Under the pieces are notes generated by a model. It searched no databases. It had not been told where the DNA came from and saw only the letters and a program-made list of their open reading frames with translations. Both the position numbers and the translations under genes were made by a program. Below, piece by piece: positions 8,547 through 63,059 of a stretch of DNA of 64,000 nt. Source of the DNA: a virus. The stretch is from the IMG/VR virus record IMGVR_UViG_3300038426_000075, positions 24,039 through 88,038 of that record; one strand, 5' to 3'. How positions within the stretch are numbered: the stretch's first letter is position 1; each line of letters starts with the position of its first letter.

Positions 8547-10277
8547 CTAAAACGGTAATCCGGTTAATGGATTCAGAGGACAACATCCAGCTGCCTTCAT
8601 TGCATCGCCTCTTTCATCCGTTACAGTACCCATATGCCATGGGGAAATATCTCCATCACAGCAACCGTTACAATCGTTTCTTCCAACAGTATTGTCTGCA
8701 CAGATAACCTCTCTCCATCGCCCACAAACTCCTAAACATATGTCTTCTCGCACTGGTTCCCCGCTGTCGTAATATAAGAGCACTGTCCCACTACAATTCC
8801 ATTCCCAGTGCTGCGTCCTGAGACCCAGTTCGTGGCAGATACCACAATAGCTACAATCTGCTTGCGGAGGACACACATCACAGCAAAAACGGAATGTAGT
8901 CGTCCATAACTGCAATGCCATGCCCGGTGGAGTATAACAATTTACGGCCAAGCTGATTGCAGCACTTCCTCCGCAGCAATCCGTGAGCGTAATAGTTGGG
9001 TTATCGACGCAGTTTACATTCGTGGCTGGGGCGGTATATACAGCTTCCCCGCTATCATTGGGGCTGAAAGCGATAGTCCCCCCACCAGCAGTAACGGCCC
9101 AAGACCAAGGACCACATCCACCCTGAGCGGTAAGGGTTTGAGATCCGCCACAACTCATTAAAAGGGAAGTACAGAGAATAGAAAGAGGATCGGCATCATC
9201 ACAACATGGAGTACCTATAACAGTATAGGTACTCCCGCATCGATCTTTTAATTTTATAATACCAGGCTGGGTGCACTCGATACCAACACCCAAACCGGTG
9301 GATAGACCATCTTTTGACGTACCAAGCAGTGACAATGCCCCTGAAGCCGTCCATTCGAAGGGTAAACATCCTCCATTAACCTCTGGAATAGCGTATAATT
9401 TGCCAAATACACGATAGACAAGCAATCCACCAGCTCCTCCAAGGGGAACGGAAGTTGGCATTTTGCAAAGGGCCATACCCTCGTAAACTATATAGGGTTG
9501 ACAAGTTCCAAAATCTTCCCACCAAATCTCCACTTTTCTAAGATCAGGGGTTTTTAAACAGCAATCCACATCAATCTTTTGCTGTTGACTACATATTACA
9601 TTAGCATTATTATCGAGGATGATGCCCCCAAGAAGCAGGATGCCTAAACCAGTTCTGGAAAGTATGCCTGTCTCGGTATATGACTTCCAAATAATGTAAT
9701 TTCCTTTATCATCATGACCATGATCTATTATCTGACCCCAAGCTGGAGGAGAAAGGGAGTAAACCGTATGGTTATTTGGTTCACCGTCATAGTGTCTTGG
9801 TTCAACAGGAGCAGTATAGGTGAACAAAAAATCCCATACAATGTCCTGACAGGTGGGACATTTGCTTACATCAATTAAATAATAGGTTTTGAAATAATCA
9901 ATTCCAACGACATCTGTAGGTTCTATCACTCCTGAATTTTTCATCGGAGGAACAAAAAGCGGAAAATCAATAAATGTAATAGTGCATATACCTTTTATAG
10001 CTGTGACGACCCGACTTACATCAATCTCAACAAAGTCCTGACCAAACACCGACTTCACAATGATCGTTGTTCCAGGTTCAGGCGAACGTTTGTCTTGGAG
10101 CGATTTCAATTTCGGGACAGCTATGTTCATCCTGTTTTTTAACTGATAGAGCATATTCTTGGCTTCCCCAACAAATTGTTGGCAATAGGCCGGATCTCCG
10201 ATAAGGTTCCACGAAACGGCACCCGATGGGTATCGGTATCTCCAATCATCTAATTCCGAATAGTCTCGCTTTGCCAT
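8547..10277 (-). CDS. Cysteine-rich virion protein with Ig-like segment (576 aa)
   Basis: I count 36 cysteines in 576 residues, several as CC pairs, concentrated in the C-terminal half. A region at about residues 370-450 has the alternating pattern of an Ig-like beta-sandwich. The last 110 residues are a dense Cys cluster that could bind metal or form disulfides outside the cytoplasm. Its ATG overlaps the stop of the upstream gene (TAATG), so it is co-translated with the His-repeat protein. A host-contacting tail protein stabilised by disulfides after release is one possibility. No homologue is recognised. Confidence 0.5.
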   Translation of the reverse strand: MAKRDYSELDDWRYRYPSGAVSWNLIGDPAYCQQFVGEAKNMLYQLKNRMNIAVPKLKSLQDKRSPEPGTTIIVKSVFGQDFVEIDVSRVVTAIKGICTITFIDFPLFVPPMKNSGVIEPTDVVGIDYFKTYYLIDVSKCPTCQDIVWDFLFTYTAPVEPRHYDGEPNNHTVYSLSPPAWGQIIDHGHDDKGNYIIWKSYTETGILSRTGLGILLLGGIILDNNANVICSQQQKIDVDCCLKTPDLRKVEIWWEDFGTCQPYIVYEGMALCKMPTSVPLGGAGGLLVYRVFGKLYAIPEVNGGCLPFEWTASGALSLLGTSKDGLSTGLGVGIECTQPGIIKLKDRCGSTYTVIGTPCCDDADPLSILCTSLLMSCGGSQTLTAQGGCGPWSWAVTAGGGTIAFSPNDSGEAVYTAPATNVNCVDNPTITLTDCCGGSAAISLAVNCYTPPGMALQLWTTTFRFCCDVCPPQADCSYCGICHELGLRTQHWEWNCSGTVLLYYDSGEPVREDICLGVCGRWREVICADNTVGRNDCNGCCDGDISPWHMGTVTDERGDAMKAAGCCPLNPLTGLPF

Positions 10278-11152
10278 TACGACTGTTCCTCTGTCACCTT
10301 CTTTAAGTGAAGCCTTTGATAAGCAAAACTACCTTCTGGCCCCTGGTCGGGAATCTTTAAAGATGAATGCTCATAAGAAAAAGAGCCTTCAGTTACCGGA
10401 GGAGATTTCAGCTTCAAAAATTGATATCTAAAGTTCTCTGGAATTTTAGGTTTAGCTTGAAATACGTTAATTGAATCGATACGATGAAGATGTTGAAGCA
10501 TTTGGACAATAAGCTGGTAAATCTGACTGAGACTGACTGAACCTAAAGAATGACTGTGAATTAAATCCTCTACTATCAAAAGGAAGGAAAGGACAAGATT
10601 GACATTTTCTATTCCGTGGGCATGAGCCAAACTTTGAACCAAGAGATTATGAACCTGAGAAAGAATAACGCCATCTATAGCGTGTGAATGACTCATGGCC
10701 TGCACGATAAGTTGATGGATCTGTATCAACGTGGGAGTATCAATAGAATGAACATGAGAAAGGGCTTGGATTAATAATTGATGAATCTGTGTAAGCACCA
10801 CGTTGTCGATAGCATTGATGTGGGCTAAATTATTAACCAAAAGATTATGAATTTGAGAAATACTAACCTCGCCTAGGGCGTGTGAATGGGTCATGGCCTG
10901 GACAATAAGAAGATAGCTTTGAGATAAATCTACCGTCCCTAAAGAATGGGCATGCATCAAGGCCTGAACCACCAATAAAACGTTATAAATCATTTGGACA
11001 TTATCGATGGCGTGAGCATGGGCCAAATTATCAACCAGAAGGTGATGAACCTGTGTGAGCGCAACACCATCAATAACGTTGGCATGGGCTAAATTGTCCA
11101 CGGCCAACTGGAACTCTCCGCAAATAATAGGAACTATCCAATTTGGAAGCAT
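10277..11152 (-). CDS. His-x-His 22-residue repeat protein, probable tail fibre/needle (291 aa)
   Basis: The start MLPNWIV at 11152 overlaps the upstream stop (TAATG) and has GGAG eight bases upstream. A longer ATG at 11218 would overlap the previous gene by 67 bases and is less likely. Residues 18-215 hold nine exact 22-residue repeats plus a partial tenth, with pattern V-x-x-L-x-H-x-H-x-[IL]-[DG]-x-V-x-[LI]-x-Q-x-x-x-L-[LIV]. His-x-His in register recalls the iron-binding HxH motifs in the intertwined tip of T4 gp37. The C-terminal 60 residues are repeat-free and carry two related SFxY elements. A trimeric metal-stabilised fibre is the favoured inference. Confidence 0.55.
   Translation of the reverse strand: MLPNWIVPIICGEFQLAVDNLAHANVIDGVALTQVHHLLVDNLAHAHAIDNVQMIYNVLLVVQALMHAHSLGTVDLSQSYLLIVQAMTHSHALGEVSISQIHNLLVNNLAHINAIDNVVLTQIHQLLIQALSHVHSIDTPTLIQIHQLIVQAMSHSHAIDGVILSQVHNLLVQSLAHAHGIENVNLVLSFLLIVEDLIHSHSLGSVSLSQIYQLIVQMLQHLHRIDSINVFQAKPKIPENFRYQFLKLKSPPVTEGSFSYEHSSLKIPDQGPEGSFAYQRLHLKKVTEEQS
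10457..11101 (-). repeat. In-frame 66-bp tandem repeats of the His-x-His protein
   Basis: Nine full 66-bp units and a partial tenth encode the 22-residue repeats. The units have diverged at the DNA level while the protein pattern is kept, which points to selection on the protein rather than recent slippage. Confidence 0.8.
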
Positions 11153-11637
11153 TAAATTGGCTCCACGTATATCGTAACGGTTCCAGAAGAAATACTTTGT
11201 ACCAAAGGCCAGACCCAATTGGCCTTGCCGCAGTCAAAAATGTATCGGGCCGAATAGTATCGGGTTCCGTCTGTAAGTGCTGCATCTCCTATAAATGTGA
11301 TAGACTCCGTTAATCCAATAGCAACGGGCGTTCCTGCGGCATCGTGCATGATCAGGCAAATCTTTGCGTTTGCCGAGGCTACGGAAAATGTTGCATAGAC
11401 CTCAACTAAACTTGAATTTCCGAGAGCCTTTGCCGAAGCATTCTTGGTATGAACGTCTCCAGTATCTGCCGAAGCAACAGCGGATCGGAGAGCAGCTCCA
11501 TAATTGGCCTTCTTGCTTACCATGTATCCAGCGGGAGAGATATTGGCAGTCGATGATACCTGATTATTTTGGATTGCCAAAATATCCACCCCTGTATCAG
11601 CGGCTAATGTGTGAAGGACTTCGTCCCCTACTGCCAT
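11152..11637 (-). CDS. Small beta-rich virion protein (161 aa)
   Basis: It starts three bases before the spike gene's stop and ends overlapping the His-repeat gene. Composition is Ala/Ser/Thr/Val-rich with alternating hydrophobic residues typical of a beta-sandwich. The N-terminus reads like phage head or tail decoration proteins. No enzymatic motif is seen. Position between the spike and the fibre suggests a tail component. Confidence 0.45.
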   Translation of the reverse strand: MAVGDEVLHTLAADTGVDILAIQNNQVSSTANISPAGYMVSKKANYGAALRSAVASADTGDVHTKNASAKALGNSSLVEVYATFSVASANAKICLIMHDAAGTPVAIGLTESITFIGDAALTDGTRYYSARYIFDCGKANWVWPLVQSISSGTVTIYVEPI

Positions 11638-13934: not shown

Positions 13935-14864
13935 CTATCGCTTTCTATGTGTTATCGGATCAACCATTGCCCTGAATGATTCCAGGTCAAAGTCGGCTCC
14001 ATCAAGGTTTCTTATCACGAAGGACATAAATCTGTTCTTCAATCCCCGTGGAAATTTGACCCTTTCTTCCCCGGAAAAAGTCCCATTTGTATTCAGGACC
14101 CTTGTTATCGGATCTATCCTTCCCTCATCAAGGATAAGTTGTATGGAAATTGGCCCCCCTCTTTTTACGATCCATCCTTCTCGAAGTCGCTTTATGACAT
14201 CCCTCCACAAATCCTCAGTCCCAGTTTGGATTGCGCTATCAATCCTGACCCCGGCATCATCATCTCCATCCAAAAGAAAAACCCCTTGCTCGGAAGCCCC
14301 AATGTAAATACCGAGTCCATGGTAATCGCAGAATGAGTTGAATGGATAATTGCTGTACTCAGTCGTTCCAAAATGGCTCAGATTTACAGCGAATCCCTTT
14401 CGAATCGGAACGAATGCCGGCAGCACTCTGATCTCAAGCCATGGGTCAATAAATGGGATATCTAAGGCAAAGGCCAACTGGTTTTGATGGCCAATGGTAA
14501 GAACAAGCCCCAATGCGGGAATTTCAATTGCTCCACTAAGTACCCCACCGGATATCAAGGTTCCAGATAATTGAAGGGCAGGGATTCGGAGTGCGGCATC
14601 AATCTCATTACGAGGAGCAATCCTAAGAGAAAGTTCTACTGCCGGCATGGGGAGAGAAGCAGATAGCTTCCCCCCGCTTTTGATGGTTGCAGAGACCTCC
14701 AGGGCAGGGACTTCAAGTGGAAAGTCGAGTACCGCCCCCTGAGAGATGCTGGCACTCAGTTCGAGAGCAGGGATCCCTAAGCTGGCCGAGAGTGTACCCG
14801 CACTGATAACAAGCTCGGTCTCCAGGACAGGGATCTCAAGTGCAAACCACAGGTTATTTGACAT
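13935..14864 (-). CDS. Virion protein with IPALE beta-repeats (309 aa)
   Basis: Residues 5-150 contain about seven repeats of 20-21 residues built on [L]-x-x-[A]-[L]-x-[IV]-P-[AV]-[LI]-[EQG]-x-[ST]-x-x-[I], alternating short beta strands. The C-terminal 150 residues form a non-repeated domain. The same IPA[LI]E signature appears once at the very end of the protein at 15697-16698, two genes upstream in the transcript. The arrangement suggests a beta-helical or beta-stacked stem built from a shared module, probably part of the tail. Confidence 0.5.
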   Translation of the reverse strand: MSNNLWFALEIPVLETELVISAGTLSASLGIPALELSASISQGAVLDFPLEVPALEVSATIKSGGKLSASLPMPAVELSLRIAPRNEIDAALRIPALQLSGTLISGGVLSGAIEIPALGLVLTIGHQNQLAFALDIPFIDPWLEIRVLPAFVPIRKGFAVNLSHFGTTEYSNYPFNSFCDYHGLGIYIGASEQGVFLLDGDDDAGVRIDSAIQTGTEDLWRDVIKRLREGWIVKRGGPISIQLILDEGRIDPITRVLNTNGTFSGEERVKFPRGLKNRFMSFVIRNLDGADFDLESFRAMVDPITHRKR

Positions 14865-16707: not shown

Positions 16708-17685
16708 CTAATAACTCTTCCAGATTCCAGATCTACCGGACCTGACTTGTCTTTCCGATCGATCCAAGAAGATCAGGTCTTTCTTGACCTTCGCCTTTAA
16801 AATCTCAAAACGTTTACCATTTTTATCCGATGATGCCGGATCAAGGGTCTGTGTATCTTCTTTTAGGAAAGCCTCCCTGCCTATTCCATAGATCAATTCC
16901 CGGTGATACATTGCCTTGATTTCCGGGGCCACCGGAGGATTCGCAGTGATATCAGCAGTGGTGAATGGAGCCAGGGGTAAGCGATTGACCACCGTAATAA
17001 GGGTGTTACAGACCTTCCGAAGCGTAGCACTCGTCAGGAATTCATCGGACAAAGCTTGGTTGACGGTGATCTCGGATGCGGTGAGCGAAGCGACCGTTAC
17101 ATAACCATTGTTTTTGACCGTCCCGGAAATATTGATCTCATCCCCTACGTCATAGTGGGTCGTGAAGTTCCATGGATTTCCGTCTTCATCCACTCCAGTT
17201 ATTGAAATCTGACTCGTTGCTGCCGTAAATGAAATGCTCGAAACCCCTACTACCTCTCCCTTTCTGTGGTATTTTGGATATATATAAAAATAGCCCTTTC
17301 CACATTCTGGAATGTACCGCCGAGGACCATGCCATTCCCCTTCGTGATGATGCTCTTCCCTCCAATTCCTGTGCCATTGGTCCATATAGGCCTCGGAGGT
17401 TCTTATGAGGGTTCGGGGATGACCTGGATGATGATGTAAGAGATAGGCACCTTCTTTGATGTTGAGCACTAGGTCATCCGTGGTATATAGACCCATGTTA
17501 CTAAGTAACTTATACTGAGTAAGAGAAACTGTAGATCGATCCTCCACAAGTAATGTTTCTCTGTATAACTCTTCGGTAATAATATTCAGATAATGGATAA
17601 TCTCATCGTTTCCCCACAAAAAGGGCTCAATTGTATCGTCAAGGACCGTGCTTCGCGTGAGGTTAATTATTTCACCGACATTCAT
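16708..17685 (-). CDS. Head-tail adaptor (connector) protein (325 aa)
   Basis: The start MNVGEIINLTR at 17685 is used because AGGGGA precedes it. A 48-codon upstream extension would run under the oppositely oriented HNH gene. The first 60 residues match the phage adaptor pattern in which a short helical bundle with LDDTIEPFLW and DEIIHYLN is followed by an acidic helix (DUF6682-like connector). A beta-rich insertion lies at about residues 125-200 and a helical C-terminus follows. Such proteins form a ring under the portal. Confidence 0.6.
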   Translation of the reverse strand: MNVGEIINLTRSTVLDDTIEPFLWGNDEIIHYLNIITEELYRETLLVEDRSTVSLTQYKLLSNMGLYTTDDLVLNIKEGAYLLHHHPGHPRTLIRTSEAYMDQWHRNWREEHHHEGEWHGPRRYIPECGKGYFYIYPKYHRKGEVVGVSSISFTAATSQISITGVDEDGNPWNFTTHYDVGDEINISGTVKNNGYVTVASLTASEITVNQALSDEFLTSATLRKVCNTLITVVNRLPLAPFTTADITANPPVAPEIKAMYHRELIYGIGREAFLKEDTQTLDPASSDKNGKRFEILKAKVKKDLIFLDRSERQVRSGRSGIWKSY

Positions 17686-17696
17686 GACTTTTCCCC

Positions 17697-17725
17697 TTGA
17701 CAAACATATTACGCGATTGCATACT
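17697..17725 (+). promoter_or_regulatory. Sigma-70-type promoter for the reverse-oriented HNH gene
   Basis: TTGACA at 17697-17702 and CATACT at 17720-17725 are separated by 17 bases. The predicted start site falls only about ten bases before the ATG at 17741, so the leader would be almost absent. Either the leader is very short or an earlier start codon is used. Confidence 0.45.
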
Positions 17726-17740
17726 AAGAGAAAAACCAAA

Positions 17741-18337
17741 ATGCTTAAGCCTCCGAACTGGACAGAAGCTGAGAAAGAAATCCTTCGTAGATATTTCCCT
17801 ACGGAATCCAAAGAATATCTTTCTTCCATACTTCATAGAAACTTCGCGGCTATCGAGCGAAAAGCCAACTATTTGGGCATCAGAAGGTATCACCCTGAGA
17901 GCAGATTTGATAGTTTTTGGACTCCTGAACCCAATACTGGCTGCCGGCTGTGGACGGGGTCTGTAAATAGAAAAGGATATGGGCAAATTAGCAATCAAAG
18001 ACCTGTTCTTGCTCATCGAGTATCGTGGGAACTGTATATAGGTCCTATTCCAAATGGTCTTTGCGTACTTCATAAATGTGACATCCCCTCTTGCGTAAAC
18101 CATCGCCATCTTTTTCTTGGCACCCAACAGGATAACTCGGATGATTGTTGCAAGAAAAAGAGACAACTCTTTGGGGAACAAAAACCTGGGGCAAAACTGT
18201 CCGATGCCGCCGTAATAGCTATCAGACAGGATTCGAGAACTCAAAGAGAGATAGCTAAATCCTTTGGCGTATCCCAAAGTGCAATCGCTCAATCTAAAAT
18301 TGGAAAAACTTGGAAACATGTCACTAACCCTTCCTAA
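17741..18337 (+). CDS. HNH homing endonuclease, opposite strand (198 aa)
   Basis: This is the only gene on the plus strand inside the virion block. An N-terminal helical domain (about residues 1-60, TEAEKEIL start) precedes an HNH_3-type core in which GYGQI, HRVSWELYIGPIPNGL, a CDIPSCVNHRHLFLGT zinc/His region and NSDD follow in order. The C-terminal 45 residues look like a DNA-binding helix-turn-helix with REIAKSFGVSQSAIAQ. This organisation is typical of freestanding homing endonucleases. It sits between the adaptor and a capsid-stabilising gene with its own promoter. Confidence 0.8.
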   Translation: MLKPPNWTEAEKEILRRYFPTESKEYLSSILHRNFAAIERKANYLGIRRYHPESRFDSFWTPEPNTGCRLWTGSVNRKGYGQISNQRPVLAHRVSWELYIGPIPNGLCVLHKCDIPSCVNHRHLFLGTQQDNSDDCCKKKRQLFGEQKPGAKLSDAAVIAIRQDSRTQREIAKSFGVSQSAIAQSKIGKTWKHVTNPS

Positions 18338-23545: not shown

Positions 23546-23968
23546 CTATATATGTTCATTTCGATCTTTTTCTCTCCACTCTCTTTGATATTCATTATGG
23601 GCCTCATTACACGCTGAACATCTACAGTCTCTATAAGAATATCCAGAATGTGTTCCGTGTGAAATTGGACCTTTCTGTTCCTTTCTGTTCTGCATTGAAT
23701 TGCAACTCAAATGAGCGAAAGCAATGTTATCCATATCCCAAAATAGATTGACATCAACACCCAACCATTTCCGCTTATGCTCAACTGATAAATCTCTGAC
23801 GGTATCAATGAGTTTGCCACATAAATAACACTTATTAAGATCATATTTTTTTAAAAGATCGAATAAAATCATCTTTCTTAGTCGATGGGTTGCCGTTCCA
23901 AAGGACATACCCAAAAAATCACTCTTCCTTTTGTTACATTTCCAATGATTTTCCTTTGTATCCCCCAT
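23546..23968 (-). CDS. HNH endonuclease (140 aa)
   Basis: Start with CGGAGG upstream. A core at about residues 45-95 has CYLCG, then DLSVEHK, then the NLFWDMDNIAFAHLSCNS segment, the order of cysteines and His in HNH nucleases. The C-terminus has a second Cys group (CRCSAC). It lies between scaffold and a tRNA gene as a probable homing element. Confidence 0.75.
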   Translation of the reverse strand: MGDTKENHWKCNKRKSDFLGMSFGTATHRLRKMILFDLLKKYDLNKCYLCGKLIDTVRDLSVEHKRKWLGVDVNLFWDMDNIAFAHLSCNSMQNRKEQKGPISHGTHSGYSYRDCRCSACNEAHNEYQREWREKDRNEHI

Positions 23969-37888: not shown

Positions 37889-38266
37889 CTACTTCTCCAA
37901 ATATTTTAATGCCCTATCAATTTTATTTCTTTGATTTTCAACATATCCAACAATCCTATTGCATTGTGCATGTAAAAGCCCCCTGACTCTTCCAGTTATA
38001 TGGTCATGATCTATATGAGTCAAACGGTCTGTCGTAAGTTCTTTATTGCAAATAGGACATAAATTTTCTTGTACAAGTCTAAGCTTTTCCAGACTTTCTA
38101 AGGTCAGCCCGTATCTTTTTTTAAGGATATGTCTTCTCCGTAAAAGACGCCATCGGTCTGGATTCTTTTCTCTCCACTTTTTCTCCGCTAAGTACGCTTG
38201 AGCTTTATGGTTTTGTTTATACTTACGAGATGCTCTGCGAGCTGATTCCTTGCTCATCCTAGCCAT
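37889..38266 (-). CDS. Endonuclease VII-type HNH endonuclease (125 aa)
   Basis: N-terminal basic helix (about residues 1-50), then the CPICNKELTTDRLTHIDHDH core, TGRVRGLLHAQCN, and GYVEN in the order of T4 endonuclease VII (recombination endonuclease VII). The true start may be the internal ATG at 38257, since AGAGGG lies ten bases before it. Family members resolve or nick branched DNA; homing is also possible. Confidence 0.7.
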   Translation of the reverse strand: MARMSKESARRASRKYKQNHKAQAYLAEKKWREKNPDRWRLLRRRHILKKRYGLTLESLEKLRLVQENLCPICNKELTTDRLTHIDHDHITGRVRGLLHAQCNRIVGYVENQRNKIDRALKYLEK

Positions 38267-38272
38267 TCCCTC

Positions 38273-38476
38273 TTAATCATGCCCGAATATCCTCCGGTAG
38301 TTCTCTTTATACGCCTCAGAGACGGTCTTCCCTGTGCAGGCTGGGCATTTACAGAGGCCGTTCGGTGGTCCGGCACTGTGGCTACCATCATATTGTGCTC
38401 CGCATTTCCGACAAGCGAACGCCTCAGATTCTGGGGTTCGCTTCTTACTACGATAGACCGCAACCCAGTCCGACAT
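38273..38476 (-). CDS. Zinc-binding small protein (67 aa)
   Basis: Start with AAGGAG upstream. CRKCG and CKCPAC form a compact zinc module. The frame overlaps an alternative frame, but only this one contains the paired cysteines and a good RBS. Function unknown. Confidence 0.45.
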   Translation of the reverse strand: MSDWVAVYRSKKRTPESEAFACRKCGAQYDGSHSAGPPNGLCKCPACTGKTVSEAYKENYRRIFGHD

Positions 38477-38903
38477 CTCTTTCTCCTTGAAACTGTTTGA
38501 GATTGCTCATCCTTCCATCAACTGTCATGTGGCAATGTCTACAGAGAATTTGAACATTTGAGGGATCATTATTTGTTGTATCTCCGTCTCGGTGATGCCG
38601 GTCTGTTGCTTCCTCCCCGCAGAGTTCACATTTGAATAAATGATATCTAAGCCTTGCCCTCTGCCTACCCGATTCTTCAACTATATCATCACCCTTCCAC
38701 ATAGGATTCTTCTCTCCCCACTTTGCCACACGAACCTTTTCCTTTGATTCTTCAGTATGGTGTTTCCCTTTCCAGCCATGGCCCCAAATAAATCTCTTGG
38801 GTTGTCCTTTTATCCACCCGGATCTTCTCGATGTTATTATGGCAATGGGGGCTAAACCTCCGCATCCACATTCACAGAGTTTCTCGGATAGCAATTTGCT
38901 CAC
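38448..38903 (-). CDS. HNH homing endonuclease with NUMOD-like repeat (151 aa)
   Basis: A GTG start overlaps the upstream stop (GTGA). The N-terminal CECGCGG is followed by a NUMOD3-like HHTEESKEKVRVAKWGEKNP, then a CELCGEEATDRHHRDGDTTN HNH core and NVQILCRHCHMTVDGRM. It is paralogous to the protein at 42382-42960, including the same LKQFQ/LNQFQ end. A mobile homing endonuclease is the likely role. Confidence 0.75.
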   Translation of the reverse strand: MSKLLSEKLCECGCGGLAPIAIITSRRSGWIKGQPKRFIWGHGWKGKHHTEESKEKVRVAKWGEKNPMWKGDDIVEESGRQRARLRYHLFKCELCGEEATDRHHRDGDTTNNDPSNVQILCRHCHMTVDGRMSNLKQFQGERDVGLGCGLS

Positions 38904-42200: not shown

Positions 42201-42400
42201 AAGAAACCTCCTTTCTTAGGGTGCAAGTTCACCACATACGACTTCCCCAAATTCTGCGGCTCTACTCGGTCCACCGATGACGGCACATGCCCACACCTCG
42301 AACACTTATACGGGAATGGATTCTTCTTATCCACCACCAAGAGCTCCAGCTGGCCGCCACACATGTTACAGAACTGCTGCGTCACACCATCATCGTACAA
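42197..42400 (-). CDS. Small zinc-ribbon protein (67 aa)
   Basis: TTG start with AAGGGGA upstream. CNMCGG and CSRCGH form the ribbon. The C-terminus QNLGKSYVVN closely resembles the last part of TerL (QNLAKSYAVN), as if a copy of that end was retained or captured. Lies after the HNH gene that follows TerL. Confidence 0.45.
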   Translation of the reverse strand: MYDDGVTQQFCNMCGGQLELLVVDKKNPFPYKCSRCGHVPSSVDRVEPQNLGKSYVVNLHPKKGGFL

Positions 42401-42960
42401 AATCTTCCCCTTCCATCATGGCCCAAGACCACCGGAACTTCTTGAAACTGATTAAGGTTCTTCATTCGGCCATCAGCTTTCATGTGGCAAGACCTACATA
42501 AAAACAATACGTTTTCAGGCTCATTGTTTGTGGTATCCCCATCTTTATGATGCCTATCAAGAGCTGGTCTCTCTCCACATTCCTGGCACTCTCCAATGGA
42601 AGTGTACATTCTTACTGCCCTTTGATTGCCGGAGAGCTTCCAGATTATAGACTTTCCCTTCCACTTTGGGTTAAGTTCTCCTACCTTTGCTTTGCCCATC
42701 TTCTCCCTTGTCTCTTTAGACCGTACCTTCCCAAGAGTTGAGCTTCGTATTTTTTCTTTGGTTTCCTCGGATACCACCCTTCTACACCCTGCAATGCTAA
42801 GCTTTTGCTTAGCTTCCTCAGTATGATGCATTCCTTCCCGGGCATGCCCCTTAATAAACCTCATACCATACCCTTTTACCATGCCCCTGCTTTTGCAAGA
42901 ACTTTCTGCAATAGCAGTCGGTCTTCCACATCCGCATTCACAAAGTTTTACCTCTATCAT
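42382..42960 (-). CDS. HNH homing endonuclease after TerL (192 aa)
   Basis: The ATG overlaps the TerL stop (ATGA). The CECGCG start, NUMOD3-like repeats (about residues 40-105), then ECQECGERPALDRHHKDGDT and CRSCHMKADG in HNH order make it a homing endonuclease. It is paralogous to the one at 38448-38903. It sits between TerL and a short gene whose end mimics TerL. Confidence 0.75.
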   Translation of the reverse strand: MIEVKLCECGCGRPTAIAESSCKSRGMVKGYGMRFIKGHAREGMHHTEEAKQKLSIAGCRRVVSEETKEKIRSSTLGKVRSKETREKMGKAKVGELNPKWKGKSIIWKLSGNQRAVRMYTSIGECQECGERPALDRHHKDGDTTNNEPENVLFLCRSCHMKADGRMKNLNQFQEVPVVLGHDGRGRFCTMMV

Positions 42961-47829: not shown

Positions 47830-47919
47830 TTACCTCCTATCAAAATATTTTCCAAGCTTGAAACTCGCTATGCCAATTATCAAGACTATTAAAAGCCCAA
47901 TTATCACACCTAACCTCAT
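47830..47919 (-). CDS. Tiny single-TM protein (29 aa)
   Basis: An ATG at 47919 overlaps the upstream stop (ATGA) and has AGGAGG upstream. The sequence MRLGVIIGLLIVLIIGIASF is hydrophobic and ends in a basic tail. The translational coupling supports a membrane peptide rather than chance. Confidence 0.45.
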   Translation of the reverse strand: MRLGVIIGLLIVLIIGIASFKLGKYFDRR

Positions 47920-48983
47920 AATGCGTCCTCCTGTCTTTCATGGAAGTATCTTTGAACATCTCTTCGTAGCTGGGGACTTCTATCACTTAGGACATAAAGT
48001 CCCTGCCAATCCCTCTTCAAATCCGTATCAGGATTAAACTGGTGTTTGACAAGAATGTTTTCTCTGGTTGAATAGTGTCTTTCAGCTTTTGACCCATGCC
48101 AGTGATGAAGGCAAACACCCTTTACAACCCCTACGTTTCCGCAAATAGCCCTCTCCTGCCATAAACTCTGCTTTGCGCGGTTTTCCCACTCAAAGAGCCG
48201 AGCCGTAAAGCGGGGATGATATTTTCTTTGCAAATAATAATTGAGATGACCAATCAACGCATATGCCATATAACTATCTCCGGCTCCAAGGATGCAATAG
48301 TCAATCAACCCCCCCAACTGATCCCAGGCTTCCCTTCGCATGGCCCACGCAAGACCAGGTGCTCCAGGATAGAAAGGCTTTCTCTCGATGCCTGGATACG
48401 GATAGGGATAAGGATAACCCGTTTTTATGGTATGGATTATCTTCTCTGGATTTCCATTCACCCACCAATCAATAAAGCTCCTAATCGTTCCTCTCAAATT
48501 GTAGTCCGAATCAAGATCATGCATCTGAGTCCACATCTGCACAACGGGCCAATGCTCGAGTGCGTGTAATGTCTCATCCGCCCAATCCGATCTGACAAAA
48601 TGAGTATCGGCATCAATCCAGGCTACCTTTTTCCAACCTAATGGAAGCCTTTGAACTGCTAAATTAATCATGTTTTCTTTGTACCAAAGTTCATGTTGTG
48701 TTCTAAGCTGAAGGTGATAAGGATTATTTGGTTCGGTAACAACGAAGTCTCTGTCTCCAAAGGCTGCCTCTACGGTAAAAAGAACCGCACCTGCTTCCCA
48801 TACGTGCTTGGCAAAATCTTGATATAATCTCCAGCGAGAGCGATAACGAGGAGAATTAAAAACGGTTGTCACTACAAATAATTTATCGTGAAGTATATCG
48901 GGACGCTGAAATAGGGTGCGTTGGCTCTCATCAAATGAATGCTGAATATTTATTGTGCTTCCACGATGTTCATGAGATTCCAT
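47916..48983 (-). CDS. Glycosyltransferase, GT-A type (355 aa)
   Basis: AAGGGG precedes the ATG. Residues 30-130 show the GT-A nucleotide-binding half; DAD (124-126) is the metal-binding DxD, followed by DWADETLHAL. A PYPYPYP run lies around residue 195 and a GAGDSYMAYALIG helix near residue 245. Such phage enzymes glycosylate DNA bases, capsid proteins or host surface sugars. The substrate cannot be read from sequence. Confidence 0.6.
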   Translation of the reverse strand: MESHEHRGSTINIQHSFDESQRTLFQRPDILHDKLFVVTTVFNSPRYRSRWRLYQDFAKHVWEAGAVLFTVEAAFGDRDFVVTEPNNPYHLQLRTQHELWYKENMINLAVQRLPLGWKKVAWIDADTHFVRSDWADETLHALEHWPVVQMWTQMHDLDSDYNLRGTIRSFIDWWVNGNPEKIIHTIKTGYPYPYPYPGIERKPFYPGAPGLAWAMRREAWDQLGGLIDYCILGAGDSYMAYALIGHLNYYLQRKYHPRFTARLFEWENRAKQSLWQERAICGNVGVVKGVCLHHWHGSKAERHYSTRENILVKHQFNPDTDLKRDWQGLYVLSDRSPQLRRDVQRYFHERQEDAL

Positions 48984-49669
48984 CTTAGTCCCCTTTCCTT
49001 TTTCTGATTAGCATCACGCCAAAGAGGTTGAAGGTTAGAATAATGAAAACATTGAATTTGTTCTTCTGGATTAATTAAATCGAAAGTTGATACAGGCCGT
49101 ATATGATCGATTTGCCACTGTCCGTAATTACTCCAATTCATGCCCTCAATGAATCGATTTTGTAAATATTGCCACAAATATTCCGGTGAGCATCCTACAA
49201 GATCAAAGGTTGATTTCACTCTTCTTGTACCCACACGGCTATTAACTGCTTTGTAGAGTCTTGAACGAAGGTTGCGAACAATTCGAAAATTCAGATCAGT
49301 CCGCACTCGATTACGGATATATTCGGCAGCTTTTGCTTTAGCCTTGGGACTTGCCCTTTGTTGTTTTATGACATTCACTCGTTTAGCCCTGCCTGTTTTT
49401 TCTCGTGCTCTTACTTTTTGGGGATTTCTTTTTCTCTCTTGGCGCATCCATTCAGCATTTTTCTGCCTTAGCGATTCCTTTTCCTTTTCCGTCATTTGTG
49501 CACGTTTATTACGTGCCCAAAGCTTTTTGTACTCACGTATCCGAGTTAATTGTCCATCACTCAAAGGATTATTTAATCTCTTGATACGTCGCTCTTCATT
49601 CAATCGGACTTTGTTTTTAGCCCACCATTCTCGTCTTTTAGATAATGGTATCAATCCCCTAGCCTTCAA
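48950..49669 (-). CDS. HNH-like endonuclease (239 aa)
   Basis: The N-terminal 130 residues are basic, helical and repetitive. The C-terminal half has TFDLVGCSPEYLWQYLQ, QWQIDHIRPVSTFDL and NLQPLWRDANQKK, as in a class of phage HNH nucleases. The start is probably a TTG. It overlaps the glycosyltransferase start by 34 bases. A homing role is likely. Confidence 0.65.
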   Translation of the reverse strand: MKARGLIPLSKRREWWAKNKVRLNEERRIKRLNNPLSDGQLTRIREYKKLWARNKRAQMTEKEKESLRQKNAEWMRQERKRNPQKVRAREKTGRAKRVNVIKQQRASPKAKAKAAEYIRNRVRTDLNFRIVRNLRSRLYKAVNSRVGTRRVKSTFDLVGCSPEYLWQYLQNRFIEGMNWSNYGQWQIDHIRPVSTFDLINPEEQIQCFHYSNLQPLWRDANQKKERGLRWNLMNIVEAQ

Positions 49670-49976
49670 AACTGTAGATATGCCAAGACTGTTCGGGCTT
49701 CCCTCCCATGGCCGTCCATTGGGTATGCCAGTAATCCCATCCCTTTACAGGATCACAACGGTTCCCACTTACATCCCAAAAGAAGATGTATGCAGCCAGA
49801 CCCAACTGATAGGGGGATAGGGTACTAACACCATCATACGCAGTCAGACCTAACTCAAACAGGATTCTTACGGCCAGTCGTGACTGCCGAACGAAATCGA
49901 GTACAGGTCTTTCCCCCTCGGTAACCATTTGTTGAACTAATGCAGAAATCTTTGACGTAAATTCTACTCTATCCAT
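49659..49976 (-). CDS. M15-like protein without its zinc ligands (105 aa)
   Basis: The start MDRVEFTSKI at 49976 has AAGGAGG upstream. It aligns along its length with the M15 endolysin at 51344 (same N-terminal D/N-R-x-E-[FY] start, LSxYQLG for SAHQFG, GWDYWH for GWAYWH). The zinc-site His becomes Tyr56, the Asp becomes Tyr63 and the third ligand His becomes Ser102. A catalytically dead paralogue that regulates the endolysin is likely. Confidence 0.5.
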   Translation of the reverse strand: MDRVEFTSKISALVQQMVTEGERPVLDFVRQSRLAVRILFELGLTAYDGVSTLSPYQLGLAAYIFFWDVSGNRCDPVKGWDYWHTQWTAMGGKPEQSWHIYSFEG

Positions 49977-50608
49977 TTTTCTACCTCCTTCCATTCGATA
50001 ATCTTGCCAGATTTCAGCCCAGCCTGGTGTATATGTTCTGGGGCCGTATTAGAAATATCTATCTCTGGCCCAAGGAAATCTCTCTTGGCGATTTGATAGC
50101 AATGCCTAACCAATTGAGAACAAAACATACTGTTCTTACTAATGAAGGGATTGCGTTGCCACACCCTTTTAAGGATAATGTCCAACCAAACCGCTGCTAA
50201 CCCCACGATAGGAAAATTCACTTGCTCATCAACTAATTGCAGAGCAGTAGCCAATACATTATTGACTTCTACTTCTGACAGACCAAAATCTATAATACAG
50301 GCCTGGTCGGTTTGATTATCGCACCAGTTTCCTATCCAATTCTCTTGAGCACCATTTCGCATCTGTGCTTTTAAAAGGTAGATATCGAAACTACTCTCAA
50401 AAATATGCAGACTTGTCGGGGAATCAACAGAATGTCTGTCCAGCCTTAATCCTCCAAAAATAAGGGCGTGACACCATCGCGAAGGTAGACCATCCAGAGT
50501 GAACGATTTCTGTGCCTCCCGAATGGCTCTACCCATCAGATCAGTTGTTCCTACCAGACCGATAGCTCCAGGTTTAAAATTGGCTGTAAAGAACTCAATT
50601 AAGTTCAT
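49964..50608 (-). CDS. Permuted papain-fold (YiiX/NlpC-P60-like) protein (214 aa)
   Basis: The order His47 (in WCHALIF) then Cys163 (in MFCSQLVRHC) fits the permuted NlpC/P60-type papain fold, where the His comes first. Family members cut peptides or lipids and include cell-wall enzymes. It lies inside the lysis cassette. Whether it is an accessory peptidoglycan enzyme cannot be told. Confidence 0.55.
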   Translation of the reverse strand: MNLIEFFTANFKPGAIGLVGTTDLMGRAIREAQKSFTLDGLPSRWCHALIFGGLRLDRHSVDSPTSLHIFESSFDIYLLKAQMRNGAQENWIGNWCDNQTDQACIIDFGLSEVEVNNVLATALQLVDEQVNFPIVGLAAVWLDIILKRVWQRNPFISKNSMFCSQLVRHCYQIAKRDFLGPEIDISNTAPEHIHQAGLKSGKIIEWKEVEKWIE

Positions 50609-50853
50609 GGCTTCGGGCCCGGCAGTCCTTTCTTGATCTCAACTCCTGGTAGTGGACTTCTTGCGAGATAGTTTCCTATGGCAATAATCGCTGATACAGC
50701 TGAAACGATTATGACTTTATGTGTCCCTGTATCGAAATTAAAGGTCTGAGGAGCGACTATCATGGTGCTTATTGCCGTCCCGATAGCACCACTGGCCACC
50801 GAAATCAACCCTCCGATCCAACCTCTTGTCGTGTCTGATATTGTAAATTGCAT
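50605..50853 (-). CDS. Holin-like membrane protein (82 aa)
   Basis: Two hydrophobic segments (about residues 14-35 and 47-64) and a short basic Pro-rich tail make it a class II holin-like protein. It overlaps the next gene by ATGA and lies two genes downstream of the endolysin. Start with AAGGAGG upstream. Confidence 0.5.
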   Translation of the reverse strand: MQFTISDTTRGWIGGLISVASGAIGTAISTMIVAPQTFNFDTGTHKVIIVSAVSAIIAIGNYLARSPLPGVEIKKGLPGPKP

Positions 50854-50867
50854 GATACCTCCTTTTT

Positions 50868-51326
50868 CTACATAGGTTGAGGCGTGATAGGACCCTTAAT
50901 CGGTGGTGTTAGCCATTCTGGATGCTGCGCCAACATAGCCTTTACCTGTGCTTGTGTAGTGCCAGAAGGCAAAGTTGGACCTTTCCATGTCTGTATATAC
51001 CCACCCTTAACGATTTGTGTTCCAGTTTTTATTGCCGGATACGCACCCCCCGTTAGGACTCCAGTAAATTGAGGTGCATTTCCCAGAGGGAAATATGCAA
51101 TTCCACCACCTGGAGTTTGGCTAAAGGCATAGTGGGTAAAATCAATATTATTTGGGTCTATACCTTCCTCTGCCATTTGACCAGCATACTTTGGATCTTT
51201 CATCCATGTGGGCTGAGCATAAGCTGCATAGTAATCTGCTCTTGAGCGGCGTACGTAACTACCAGCTCCAAATGGAGCGGGTTGATTCCACATGCCACTA
51301 TAATTTGGTGCCTTTTGTACTGTCAT
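50868..51326 (-). CDS. Hypothetical protein in lysis cassette (152 aa)
   Basis: Start with AAAGGAG upstream. Tyr/Gly/Pro-rich, with no hydrophobic segment or signal peptide. Between holin-like and M15 genes. It could be a tail or lysis regulator; nothing is recognised. Confidence 0.35.
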   Translation of the reverse strand: MTVQKAPNYSGMWNQPAPFGAGSYVRRSRADYYAAYAQPTWMKDPKYAGQMAEEGIDPNNIDFTHYAFSQTPGGGIAYFPLGNAPQFTGVLTGGAYPAIKTGTQIVKGGYIQTWKGPTLPSGTTQAQVKAMLAQHPEWLTPPIKGPITPQPM

Positions 51327-51343
51327 AGTTTTATTCTCCTTTT

Positions 51344-51709
51344 TTAACTTTCAAAGTGATCTTCATCCCAAGAAATATCTTCCTTGCCGCCGTACTCCTC
51401 CTTCCACACCTTGTGCCAGTAAGCCCATCCCTTCTTTGGCGCAGGCAGAACCTTGGTCAAATCGTCTGACAGGAACATAATATCTAATGCCTTACCGAAC
51501 TGGTGAGCTGAGATATTCTTAATTCCATCACAATTCGTCACAACTTTCGACTTATCTATTACGTTGCCATCTTTATCTCTTCCAAGAGAAAACAGAAATT
51601 GCTGCTCTTCCGTTAGTCTATGCCATGAATCCCCAACTGGGTGCTCTCCCTCCGCAATCATCCTCGAAATGAATCTGGTTATCCGATCTGTATATTCAAA
51701 TCGGTTCAT
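51344..51709 (-). CDS. M15-type endolysin, probable L-Ala-D-Glu or D-Ala peptidase (121 aa)
   Basis: An N-terminal helix (NRFEYTDRITRFISRMI) is followed by the M15 core: GRDKDG, KVVTNCDGI, SAHQFGKALD (H69, D76), GWAYWH and a final DEDHFE (H118). Those are three zinc ligands. Endopeptidases of this family cut cross-bridges of peptidoglycan. It opens the lysis cassette and follows a terminator. Confidence 0.65.
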   Translation of the reverse strand: MNRFEYTDRITRFISRMIAEGEHPVGDSWHRLTEEQQFLFSLGRDKDGNVIDKSKVVTNCDGIKNISAHQFGKALDIMFLSDDLTKVLPAPKKGWAYWHKVWKEEYGGKEDISWDEDHFES

Positions 51710-51735
51710 GCTTTAACCATCCTCTTAACATTCCC

Positions 51736-51782
51736 CCAAAAAAAGAAAAGGCGCCCCCATAAATTGCAACTGAGTGCGCCTT
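51736..51782 (-). terminator. Rho-independent terminator before the lysis cassette
   Basis: AAGGCGC (51748-51754) and GCGCCTT (51776-51782) close a 7-bp stem, followed on the minus strand by TTTTCTTTTTTT. It stops transcription from the genes at 52-56 kb. Its 21-base loop contains an ATTGCAAC half-site. Confidence 0.7.
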
Positions 51783-51835
51783 ATCTATAAAAAAGTCTAT
51801 TCGGTCTGGGCGTTTTTATCACTGCCCCAAGTCTA

Positions 51836-51849
51836 TACGCAAATGCGTA
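51836..51849. promoter_or_regulatory. TACGCA-AA-TGCGTA palindrome, site 5
   Basis: A perfect copy in the gap between the terminator and the end of the coiled-coil gene at 51894, so it lies downstream of one transcript and upstream of the lysis genes. Confidence 0.6.
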
Positions 51850-51893
51850 ATCTTGTCAAGAAAAATCTTTGAGATAGACTTACAATTCGCATC

Positions 51894-56570: not shown

Positions 56571-56639
56571 CTACCTCTCTTCCTTTTTAAAAATCACCAC
56601 CACGTCCACCACCTCAATCTTCAACTCGTTCTGCTCAAC
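56571..56639 (-). pseudogene. Duplicated C-terminal tail next to HNH gene
   Basis: The frame reads VEQNELKIEVVDVVVIFKK then EER and a stop. It closely resembles the last 22 codons of the HNH gene at 57204-57488 (ERNELQVGVVDIVVIFKK). The two copies flank the HNH gene at 56635-57207. A duplication or insertion during arrival of that HNH gene is inferred. Confidence 0.5.
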
Positions 56640-57207
56640 CGCCTTTATTTCTCCTGTTTTCCCATTTAGTACAAATTGGACAATAACGTGCTACTTTTCC
56701 ATGATGACAAGGAAAAGGACTTGGAAACAATGGATGTCCTTTCGGGCAGTGTGTTTTTCTTGCATTTACCCCTGTAACTCCATTACCTCTCAAAAGATTT
56801 TCTCTGAGTGTTACTGGTTCTAAATGGTCTGGATTTACACACCTTCTATTTCTGCAAAGATGATCCAGTGTTAAACCGTTAGGAATGGGCCCTTTAAAAT
56901 GTTCGTATGACCACCTATGGGCATTAAAACACTTCCTAACTTTATTTTTTTCAACATTGAATTTCCCGTATCCTCCCGGAGCAATGGCCCCTATCCAATT
57001 CCAACAACCATCCTGAGCCTTCTCAACCTTGCACATAAACCTTTCTATTATAGGTTTCGTTTCTTTCCCCATTAAATCCTTTGAATGTTGAATACCAGAA
57101 CACTTTTTACTACAGTATTTCCCCTTCCCTTTTCTAACCTTAGACGTTTGCGTAAAGAATGGTTCTCCACAAACCCCACAGAGTAATTTGACAATGCTCA
57201 CTTTCAT
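56635..57207 (-). CDS. HNH homing endonuclease (190 aa)
   Basis: CGVCGEPFFTQTSKVRKGKG at the start, then CWNWIGAIAPGGYGKF, NAHRWSYEHFKGPIPNGL, LDHLCRNRRCVNPDHLEPVT and LRENLLRG, the full HNH_3 homing endonuclease pattern. It is paralogous to 60052-60666. Start overlaps the previous gene by ATGA. Its flanks are a duplicated tail. Confidence 0.8.
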   Translation of the reverse strand: MKVSIVKLLCGVCGEPFFTQTSKVRKGKGKYCSKKCSGIQHSKDLMGKETKPIIERFMCKVEKAQDGCWNWIGAIAPGGYGKFNVEKNKVRKCFNAHRWSYEHFKGPIPNGLTLDHLCRNRRCVNPDHLEPVTLRENLLRGNGVTGVNARKTHCPKGHPLFPSPFPCHHGKVARYCPICTKWENRRNKGG

Positions 57208-60051: not shown

Positions 60052-60666
60052 TTATTGTTTAAATATGCGCTTCTGGAATCGGCTCCCTCTTAATACATTT
60101 TCCCTTTGCGTAACCGCCCCCAAATGATCTGGATTCACGCATTTACGATTTCTACAAAGATGATCTAAAGTAAGTCCAAGAGGAATTTCACCCTTAAAAT
60201 ACCGATAGGCCCATCTATGCGCATGGAAAGTTTTGCTGATATTGTTCTTTTTAACAGTAAACGTTCCATACCCGTTCGCCTTAATATTTCCAATCCAGTT
60301 CCAACATCCATTTGTGTCTTTTTTAACCTTATCCATAAACCTTTCTATTACAGGTTTAGTTTCTCTCCCCATCAATGTCTCGCTAATCTTTCTCCTATGA
60401 TCCTCCGTTTTAACGTGTGCTCTCATTTTTTCTTTTGCTTCTTCTGAGTGCTTCTTCCCCAATTTGGCGATTCTTATCTTTTCCTTTGTTGCCTCACTCG
60501 TTTTCATGCCGAGATGCGAACATTTTGGGGGAATACCTTTTAACTTTTGAGACTTGCCCGTTGCCTGGCATTGTCTACTGCAATATTTCCCGGCTCCCCT
60601 TTTCAGGTGACAGGAGTACACCGAAAACCCTTTACCGCACACCTCGCACCTTACCTCTATTTTCAT
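60052..60666 (-). CDS. HNH homing endonuclease (204 aa)
   Basis: N-terminal CEVCGKGFSVY and KYCSRQC zinc finger, NUMOD3-like repeats at about residues 55-95, then CWNWIGNIKANGYGTF, AHRWAYRYFKGEIPLGL, LDHLCRNRKCVNPDHLGAVT and RENVLRG. It is paralogous to 56635-57207. The ATG overlaps the stop of a small gene (ATGA). Confidence 0.8.
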   Translation of the reverse strand: MKIEVRCEVCGKGFSVYSCHLKRGAGKYCSRQCQATGKSQKLKGIPPKCSHLGMKTSEATKEKIRIAKLGKKHSEEAKEKMRAHVKTEDHRRKISETLMGRETKPVIERFMDKVKKDTNGCWNWIGNIKANGYGTFTVKKNNISKTFHAHRWAYRYFKGEIPLGLTLDHLCRNRKCVNPDHLGAVTQRENVLRGSRFQKRIFKQ

Positions 60667-60921: not shown

Positions 60922-62574
60922 TTAATCACTCCCATATCTTCTATCTTGGTGTTCTTTTTTTTCTGGAGCCTTCCACTCGCCCTGAGCAATAAACTTGGCT
61001 CCCTGAACTATTTTTAATTCCATCTGCATCCCTTCGGGGTTTTGTTCCGATGCCCACGTTTTCCCCTTAATGATCTTTAATCTACCCCGGTCCATAGTTA
61101 GATAAAGTCGTGGTTTCTCAAGTCCGAGGCCTCCTCCTCGCCCATATTCCTTTTGTGGATCTTTCTGGATAGCAACGAACAGAACCCCTTTATTCAATCT
61201 CTTGTGGTACTCTCGGAGTCTTTCCGCTATCAGGTAGAACTTGTCTGTAATTTCCAAAAAATCAATAATATTAACTCCATCTGGATTGAGTGCATTGGCG
61301 AAATCCTCTTCTTTTTTATAGAATCCTACCTTCCTCCATTGTTTGAGGGGCCCCTCAAATTTCTTTAGCCGTGCCTTCAACTCTGGACCATCCATCTCCG
61401 ATGAAAAATAAAGGATTGGCCACTTATCCATATTCATTCTTGCAAAATTCAGGAGGAAGGCGGTTTTCCCAGCATTCGGAATCCCAGCAATAACCAAAAT
61501 GTTCTTAGGCATAATTGAGACAAGGCGCTCGATCTCGAATGGGAACTGAAGTGGTAAAATTGAATCGTCTGCATTCTCCCAGTTAATTAGTTCAATATCG
61601 GTCTCGATCTTTATAAACATTCCATTCTTGTCGCCATATTTCTGTATAACCCTCTGATCACAAAGGCGTTTTAGTGCCATAACTACTGCCTTTTTATCGT
61701 TTCTTGTGGTCACCTGTAGTCCAATGTGGACATCTGTGGTCAAGAAGTGTCCCGTTGTGGTCATCACAAAATCATGAACCTCTGAAGAAATGTTTCTTTC
61801 TTTTCTTTCTACTCGATCAAGTGCACTTTTTATTTTTGCATCAATCCATCTTTTATCAGGATTTTCACCCCATGAAAGTATAAGTCTTTCAAGCACTTCG
61901 CAGATAAATGCAGGTTCACCACCCGCCTTTGTCATTAGATTAGCGGTATGAAAAAGGCTATCGTCCCTTTTGCCATAACTAAAGAAATTGTGGTCAGTTG
62001 TGGTCGTTGTGGTCAGTTGTGTCTCTTTTTGGTTTTGTACCCCCCCTAGAACCCCCCCTTTAAAATCTAATGCTTTTATTATTATTTCTATTGCATTTGG
62101 AATTGAAGGAGCTTGAACTTCGAATAGGCTCAAACCCTCCATCCATTGCCAACTTCTTCCTGTGCCATTTACCGAAGGTGCTACGATGATGAACCCGCCT
62201 TTTGTCCGTACATCAATACCTTCAGCTACCTTAGCTTTATTAACAAAGCCATCTTGGTGTGAGAAGAAGAAATGTTTCCCTCCTCGAGGAGTTCTCTCAC
62301 AAGGAACCAAAAGTCCATCAGGTATTGCATCATTTATCCGAGTTATTCCTGCTACTGTATCAGCATCCACCACAAGGAGATTAGAAATTTCACCAGTTAC
62401 AAGTCCGATATTTGCATCAGGCATCTTTGACCACCATGATTTGATTTCATCAGAAGTAGCTCTCCGGCTTTGATAGAGTTCCCATTTAGTCAAAGGTTTT
62501 TTGTCCTTTGCCGCCGGAATTACAGAAAATCCTTTTGCTTCGTATTGTAAGGCCGCTTCCAAGAGTTTATTCAT
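60922..62574 (-). CDS. Primase-polymerase/helicase fusion (550 aa)
   Basis: The start ATG at 62574 overlaps the HNH stop (ATGA). Residues 5-150 match the bifunctional primase-polymerase (Prim-Pol) fold: FSVIPAAKDKKPLTKW, ANIGLVTGEISNLLVVDAD and VRTKGGFIIVAPS. After a Thr-rich linker encoded by repeated TTGTGGTCAG units, a DnaB/RecA-like ATPase has GIPNAGKT (about 364-371) and YFSSEM. This is a phage replication protein that primes and unwinds DNA. Confidence 0.75.
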   Translation of the reverse strand: MNKLLEAALQYEAKGFSVIPAAKDKKPLTKWELYQSRRATSDEIKSWWSKMPDANIGLVTGEISNLLVVDADTVAGITRINDAIPDGLLVPCERTPRGGKHFFFSHQDGFVNKAKVAEGIDVRTKGGFIIVAPSVNGTGRSWQWMEGLSLFEVQAPSIPNAIEIIIKALDFKGGVLGGVQNQKETQLTTTTTTDHNFFSYGKRDDSLFHTANLMTKAGGEPAFICEVLERLILSWGENPDKRWIDAKIKSALDRVERKERNISSEVHDFVMTTTGHFLTTDVHIGLQVTTRNDKKAVVMALKRLCDQRVIQKYGDKNGMFIKIETDIELINWENADDSILPLQFPFEIERLVSIMPKNILVIAGIPNAGKTAFLLNFARMNMDKWPILYFSSEMDGPELKARLKKFEGPLKQWRKVGFYKKEEDFANALNPDGVNIIDFLEITDKFYLIAERLREYHKRLNKGVLFVAIQKDPQKEYGRGGGLGLEKPRLYLTMDRGRLKIIKGKTWASEQNPEGMQMELKIVQGAKFIAQGEWKAPEKKEHQDRRYGSD

Positions 62575-63059
62575 TTCCAAAGTCCCGCGTGATATTCAGC
62601 ATGGCAATTAGCACAGAGAATGAGAAAATCAGTCTCTAAAATTTTCTGTTGAAAATGTTCAAAACTATATTGCCTTAACCATACCGAAAATTGATCACGA
62701 GGACCCTCTTTTCCCTTGGAGTTTGTATGATGGATTTGGATTGCTGCCAATGATTTATCATATCGACACCTATCACAATGAAGTCTGTCTGTTCCTAAAT
62801 GAGCTAAAAACCAATCAATCTTCTTTTTTCTATGTTTATATGCTCGATCAAGATACTCTTTTTTATGTACCTGATAATACTTCGTGCTTCTTTTTCTTGC
62901 ACTTTCAAGATGGTTTTTGTACCATTCACCACTTTTATAGTTGGCTTCTGCCTTATGCTGCTGATAGTACTGTTTGTGCTGTTTAATAAAACGCTCTCGA
63001 TTTTTTAGATAATATTCTTTTCTATGTTCTTTTGCTTTTTCTGGATCTTTATAGGGCAT
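62571..63059 (-). CDS. HNH endonuclease (162 aa)
   Basis: A basic, repetitive helical N-terminus (about residues 1-85) precedes CDRCRYDKSLAAIQIHHTN and FLILCANCHAEYHAGL, the HNH core. It overlaps the replication gene. It is a probable homing endonuclease. Confidence 0.7.
   Translation of the reverse strand: MPYKDPEKAKEHRKEYYLKNRERFIKQHKQYYQQHKAEANYKSGEWYKNHLESARKRSTKYYQVHKKEYLDRAYKHRKKKIDWFLAHLGTDRLHCDRCRYDKSLAAIQIHHTNSKGKEGPRDQFSVWLRQYSFEHFQQKILETDFLILCANCHAEYHAGLWK

Follow-up and report, generated by a model that had tools for sequence, protein, structure and literature searches.

A zinc-less M15-fold protein maintained beside exchangeable endolysins in a tailed phage is a candidate regulator of lysis

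What does a phage do with a protein that is built like an endolysin but has lost the active site of one? Endolysin control is commonly attributed to holins, SAR domains or dedicated antagonists. The question is raised by an 88,038-base virus record, of which bases 24039–88038 (64,000 nucleotides, hereafter the window) were analysed. Genes for terminase, portal and major head protein are present in the record, which thus belongs to a tailed phage. Its lysis region, encoded on the minus strand and situated upstream of the terminase genes, comprises in this order an M15-type endolysin (P1), an ORF of 152 aa, a holin-like ORF, a C92-like ORF, the zinc-less protein (P2), an HNH-like ORF and a glycosyltransferase-like ORF (Table 1). 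An earlier note had described P2 as a dead paralogue of P1 that could restrain or titrate it. Elsewhere in the window, a 313-aa ORF with imperfect repeats of ~24 residues (LLVQ..AHAHAID..; 10277–11218) and a 309-aa ORF with repeated IPALELS-type motifs (13935–14864) were recognised by eye. Many HNH/homing-endonuclease-like ORFs, likewise judged from their translations, are dispersed across it, namely, at 17648–18337, 23546–23968, 37889–38266, 38448–38903, 42382–42960, 56635–57207, 60052–60666 and 62571–63059.

Table 1. Features of the lysis region (window positions)
Feature	Position	Strand	Basis
P1, 121-aa M15-type endolysin; H69/D76/H118 and D115 intact	51344..51709	-	Foldseek, phrog_2649, motif
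152-aa ORF between P1 and the holin-like gene, no assigned function; in exchanged block	50868..51326	-	
Holin-like small membrane protein, 82 aa	50605..50853	-	size, position, sequence appearance; no family above cut-off
Exchanged block (P1, 152-aa ORF, holin-like gene); no L001 match	50615..51733	-	blastn
214-aa ORF, weak likeness to permuted papain-like amidase C92 (E 0.066)	49964..50608	-	
AGGAGGT ribosome-binding site of P2, within final codons of upstream ORF	49977..49994	-	sequence
P2, 105-aa zinc-less M15-fold pseudoenzyme; Y56, Y63, S102 at ligand sites, H99 at Asp site	49659..49976	-	
HNH-like ORF between P2 and glycosyltransferase	48950..49669	-	
Glycosyltransferase-like ORF, downstream of P2 in 3/3 P2 loci	47916..48983	-	

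P1 has the active-site residues of an M15 enzyme. Its zinc ligands are H69, D76 and H118, and the catalytic D115 is located three residues ahead of the last His. This spacing, with the Asp ligand seven residues after the first His, matches EndoT5, for which H66, D73 and H133 are given as zinc-binding residues and D130 as the catalytic Asp (PMC10487532). The AlphaFold2 model of P1 (nine-row alignment, pLDDT 88.2, pTM 0.77) had Ply500 (2vo9) as its best Foldseek match with E 4.0e-5, and a comparison with PHROGs gave the endolysin family phrog_2649 (E 7.8e-4). The Pfam scores remained below the cut-offs with 16.5 vs 25 bits for PF13539 and 14.3 vs 25 bits for VanY; the classification of P1 as an M15_C-type endolysin is based on predicted fold and motif. 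When all six frames of the window and of the remaining record were scanned by pattern, P1 was the only carrier of the zinc motif H..G.A.D. On a 42 kb viral contig, an endolysin gene of the P1 type (L015:6788–7141) has every ligand and a single in-frame TGA; the TGA may be a sequencing error, the sign of a broken gene or a case of recoding.

The automatically called P2 ORF starts at 49994 and encodes 111 aa, while AGGAGGT directly precedes an inner ATG at 49976, from which a protein of 105 aa would be made. P1 and P2 are clearly homologous. BLASTP aligned them with E 1e-19, and their Smith-Waterman score was 158, while 2000 shuffles averaged 26.7 and did not exceed 55. They share 41 of 105 aligned residues. 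The good alignment extends beyond the motifs, as 32 of 84 residues are identical outside P1 residues 66–77 and 113–121, so that the poor match that would have spoken against the earlier note was not observed. The replacement of the zinc ligands proposed there is exact, with H69 to Y56, D76 to Y63 and H118 to S102, and the catalytic Asp, which had been missed, is replaced as well (D115 to H99). All four substitutions are fixed in the three P2 copies known, and neither the zinc ligands nor the catalytic Asp by which an M15 peptidase is recognised are present in any of them. A family search of Pfam, PHROGs and NCBIfam returned no match for P2 at the thresholds used.

The three P2 copies were aligned with eight ligand-bearing sequences, namely, P1, L003, L004, L016, L027, P0003 (the same protein from L012 and L013), P0004 (from L014) and L015 with an X at its stop. 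Thirty columns are invariant across the ligand-bearing rows, and 21 of them are unchanged in all P2 copies. The nine changed columns are those of the three zinc ligands, the catalytic Asp, R31, Q36, I18, K92 and I112. That all three ligands are found among these nine is a modest enrichment with p 0.02, and inclusion of the Asp (4/4) gives p 0.005, both with columns treated as independent. R31 and Q36 are putative substrate-binding residues, judging from an Arg listed for M15 enzymes (PMC11266112) and from what is generally known about the fold. P2 is thus well supported as a pseudoenzyme that presumably lacks catalysis. It might instead be catalytic with another set of metal ligands or by a tyrosine-based mechanism, as Y56, Y63, H99 and Y101 lie around the old site and are invariant in the three copies. 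No ligand set like a known metal site was seen, though, and with the zinc ligands and the Asp gone such an activity is very unlikely.

P2 is confidently predicted to adopt the M15 fold. Its AlphaFold2 model, built from a nine-row alignment, reached a pLDDT of 93.6 and a pTM of 0.82. Foldseek placed Ply500 (2vo9) first with E 1.1e-4 and a TMq of 0.66, which agrees with the endolysin fold pattern that the earlier note had read from the sequence. With VIA-align, 102 residues were aligned both to Ply500 (Z 9.5, rmsd 3.5) and to LysB4 (Z 9.0, rmsd 3.7), and hedgehog domains had Z 5.4–5.7. All clear fold matches were of M15 type and no M23 chain was noticed among the matches listed; matches to ribosomal uL4 and Grainyhead chains were taken as chance. 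Since ligand-bearing relatives are part of the alignment, the model demonstrates compatibility with the fold rather than the exact shape of the groove.

P2 occurs in two further IMG/VR contigs, L001 (145,243-base record, 98% identical) and L002 (23,888-base record, 90% identical), so that three sequences, all from metagenomic contigs, are available. It is under purifying selection. The Nei-Gojobori dN/dS values were 0.052, 0.088 and 0.107 for the three pairs, and the synonymous excess over neutrality had p 1.2e-5, 7.3e-11 and 1.2e-9, the pairs being non-independent in both cases. The ratios for TerL, the C92-like gene and the glycosyltransferase are rough due to high dS. Most differences fall on third codon positions of P2 (2/0/10, 7/8/27 and 9/8/26 for first, second and third positions). 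Each of the three copies has an intact frame, with AGGAGGT immediately preceding the ATG. This bears on the possibility that P2 is the decaying relic of a replaced endolysin, to which its endolysin-like sister sequences and the lysin exchange in this region would fit. Given the selection and the intact frame and ribosome-binding site, a relic is most improbable, and it was rejected on account of the dN/dS near 0.1; the only escape would be selection from an overlapping element, but it is the third positions of the P2 frame that hold most differences. With three sequences, the evidence on selection and pairing depends on few events. P2 had only two chance-level matches (E 5, both records being one phage) among 50,697 phage records and none among 72,556 plasmids. 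In genome contigs, one query (A3) gave no match, and another (A8) recovered a single relative with ligands, L027, but not P2.

The tree, with ten rows, does not place P2 next to P1. P2 nests with P0003, L016 and P0004 (92/99, then 81/89 and 86/90), and P1 groups with L003 and L004 in a long subfamily apart from it. A short loop common to P2 and the short subfamily agrees with this. The nearest sequences, P0003, P0004, L016 and L027, have ~104 aa and intact ligands. As the tree is small with one starred branch and a long P2 stem, the exact sister of P2 is unsure. A duplication of P1 within the phage was rejected on this topology, and an origin of P2 from P1, as the word paralogue in the earlier note would imply, is not supported. 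From the sequences, P2 most likely descends from a short ligand-bearing M15 endolysin, and P1 and P2 were most likely brought together from two subfamilies. A second family member was absent from the five short-relative records searched (L012, L013, L014, L016 and L027). Eight records with a ligand-bearing relative (G003–G010), several of them fragments and two (G005 and G006) with the same protein, contained one family match each; the sole PF08291 matches were in the cellular genome G010, where they lie on another contig. L027 is located beside phage-like genes on a contig of a Candidatus Calidifonticultor daggyaiensis MAG (Actinomycetota, Humimicrobiia) and is the sole host lead for the short subfamily.

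The lysin upstream of P2 differs between the loci. When P1 was used as query against the L001 and L002 records, P2 was the single match in each. A conserved pair of P1 and P2 was therefore rejected; the search for the pair in other phages, which the earlier note had suggested, recovered P2 and, in place of P1, other M15 proteins upstream of it (L001:6476–6904 and L002:7363–7707). These match the endolysin family phrog_894 with E 3e-16 and 3.5e-21, respectively, and barely align with each other by BLASTP. On PF08291 (cut-off 23.2), the L001 lysin was below with 18 bits and the L002 lysin above with 35.3 bits. A ligand-bearing M15 enzyme from one of two different families is thus found upstream in all three P2 loci, and a holin-like ORF likewise. 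In blastn, the window matched L001 over 51870–51734 with 95% and over 50614–49661, ending with P2, with 85% identity: the lysin-holin block was exchanged between the two and P2 was retained. One boundary of this block, 51734–51870, is an intergenic stretch of 137 nt that precedes the lysin and shares 95% identity with L001; a TTGACA-like box and an inverted repeat, GGCGC/GCGCC, were recognised in it by eye. A promoter and terminator scan yielded no more sites than were found in shuffled sequences.

These findings bear directly on the proposal that P2, as a dead copy of P1, restrains or titrates it by mixed dimers or substrate occupancy. The two proteins are homologous and encoded in the same region on the same strand, and inactive EndoT5 D130A does compete with active EndoT5 (PMC10487532). 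In that study, though, 85% and 38% activity were left at a 30- and 300-fold excess of the inactive protein, and a complete block is given only for 1200-fold (PMC10487532). It is unlikely that co-expressed P2 would reach such ratios. Moreover, P2 most likely does not derive from P1, its losses extend past the catalytic residues to the invariant polar R31 and Q36, and it persists beside phrog_894 lysins in records without another P1 homologue. As P1 is not conserved across the P2 loci, a specific partnership is improbable. What stands of the earlier note is a conserved zinc-less M15-fold protein in a lysis region; the phrog_894 neighbours and the 300-fold excess make its titration of P1 quite unlikely.

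The other neighbours of P2 are variable to different extents. In 60-base steps, the window and L001 are 93–98% identical in P2 and 62–80% in the middle of the C92-like gene, which suggests that P2 was either recombined or more strongly constrained. L001 contains the C92-like gene. In L002, only ~47 nt of its start are left, joined to the P2 leader (L002:7942–7988), a deletion scar from which it follows that this gene was lost and P2 kept. A tie of P2 to the C92-like gene is ruled out by this remnant. At the junction of P2 and the glycosyltransferase, different HNH-like ORFs with 37% identity are present in the window (48950–49669) and L001 (8334–8912) and none in L002, and the junction is a likely insertion hot spot.

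The glycosyltransferase, a label taken from a PF00535 match of the L002 copy below the cut-off, accompanies P2 as constantly as the lysins do, and the role of P2 may therefore not be lysis. P2 could work with this enzyme or in another envelope function, e.g. by binding a surface polymer. The gene follows P2 in all three loci with 83–93% identity, and L002 lost the C92-like gene yet kept both. On the other hand, no P2 homologue was found among the ORFs of eight other glycosyltransferase loci (L019–L026, of which L022–L024 are nearly alike), which rules out a general tie between the two; P2 has also kept an endolysin fold, with a holin-like ORF and an M15 lysin upstream in every locus. An envelope role is thus unlikely, but it is ranked second after that of a lysin-independent regulator.

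The leading, still tentative reading is that P2 is a phage M15 pseudopeptidase acting as a non-catalytic, lysin-independent regulator or adaptor of lysis. P2 would be made from its own strong ribosome-binding site, alongside an M15 endolysin and a holin-like protein. Its emptied groove would bind a protein or a wall component without catalysis, and this binding may tune wall cleavage or the timing of lysis in the manner of degenerate LytM proteins. The persistence of P2 while the lysin is exchanged suggests that P2 is probably not partnered with any single lysin. By eye, no signal peptide is evident in P2, which means that the wall could be reached only after the holin opens.

Compared with the M15 endolysins Ply500 (2vo9), LysB4 (6akv) and EndoT5 (2mxz), P2 is similar in predicted fold, most scaffold residues and genomic setting, but lacks the three zinc ligands, the catalytic Asp and a cell-wall-binding domain. 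Another parallel may be seen in the degenerate LytM proteins EnvC, NlpD, ActS and DipM and in Csd2, which, like P2, have retained a wall-peptidase domain of the LAS class despite the loss of its metal site; the combination of a lost metal site and a conserved scaffold, characteristic of degenerate LytM proteins, is found in P2. LytM and D-Ala-D-Ala peptidases are both classed as LAS peptidases, and inactive LytM domains are described as regulators of wall hydrolases (PMC8416486). DipM is reported to interact with several autolysins via a conserved groove (PMC10336132), and inactive Csd2 to heterodimerize with active Csd1 (PMC5053510). By analogy, LytM-type regulators and the Csd1-Csd2 pairing would be a better model for P2 than substrate competition. 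The degenerate LytM regulators are, in contrast, cellular M23 proteins, with EnvC and NlpD working outside the cytoplasm, whereas P2 is an M15 protein encoded by a phage with no evident signal peptide. The hedgehog N-domain also uses an M15-like fold for binding, with the groove as binding site, but retains the three zinc ligands according to the table of a 2024 review of inactive metallopeptidases, while P2 retains none (PMC11266112). Hedgehog is the M15 entry encountered in this table, and the words phage, LytM and M23 are absent from the text of the review (PMC11266112). Word searches of the open-access literature returned no description of a phage M15 pseudoenzyme.

More doubtful, though conceivable, is the wider proposal that P2 is the founding member of a class of M15 pseudopeptidases with which phages control lysis no matter which endolysin they carry. 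Such a class would match, on the viral side, the degenerate LytM factors, and would have evolved within the M15 branch of the LAS peptidases through selective loss of the entire active site. If the regulatory reading is true, a selected dead protein with endolysin fold that stays in place while the active lysin changes would add a pseudoenzyme layer to the control of phage lysis and parallel the degenerate LytM regulators of bacterial division. P2 would then also be a small and readily expressed test case for a peptidase fold turning into a regulator.
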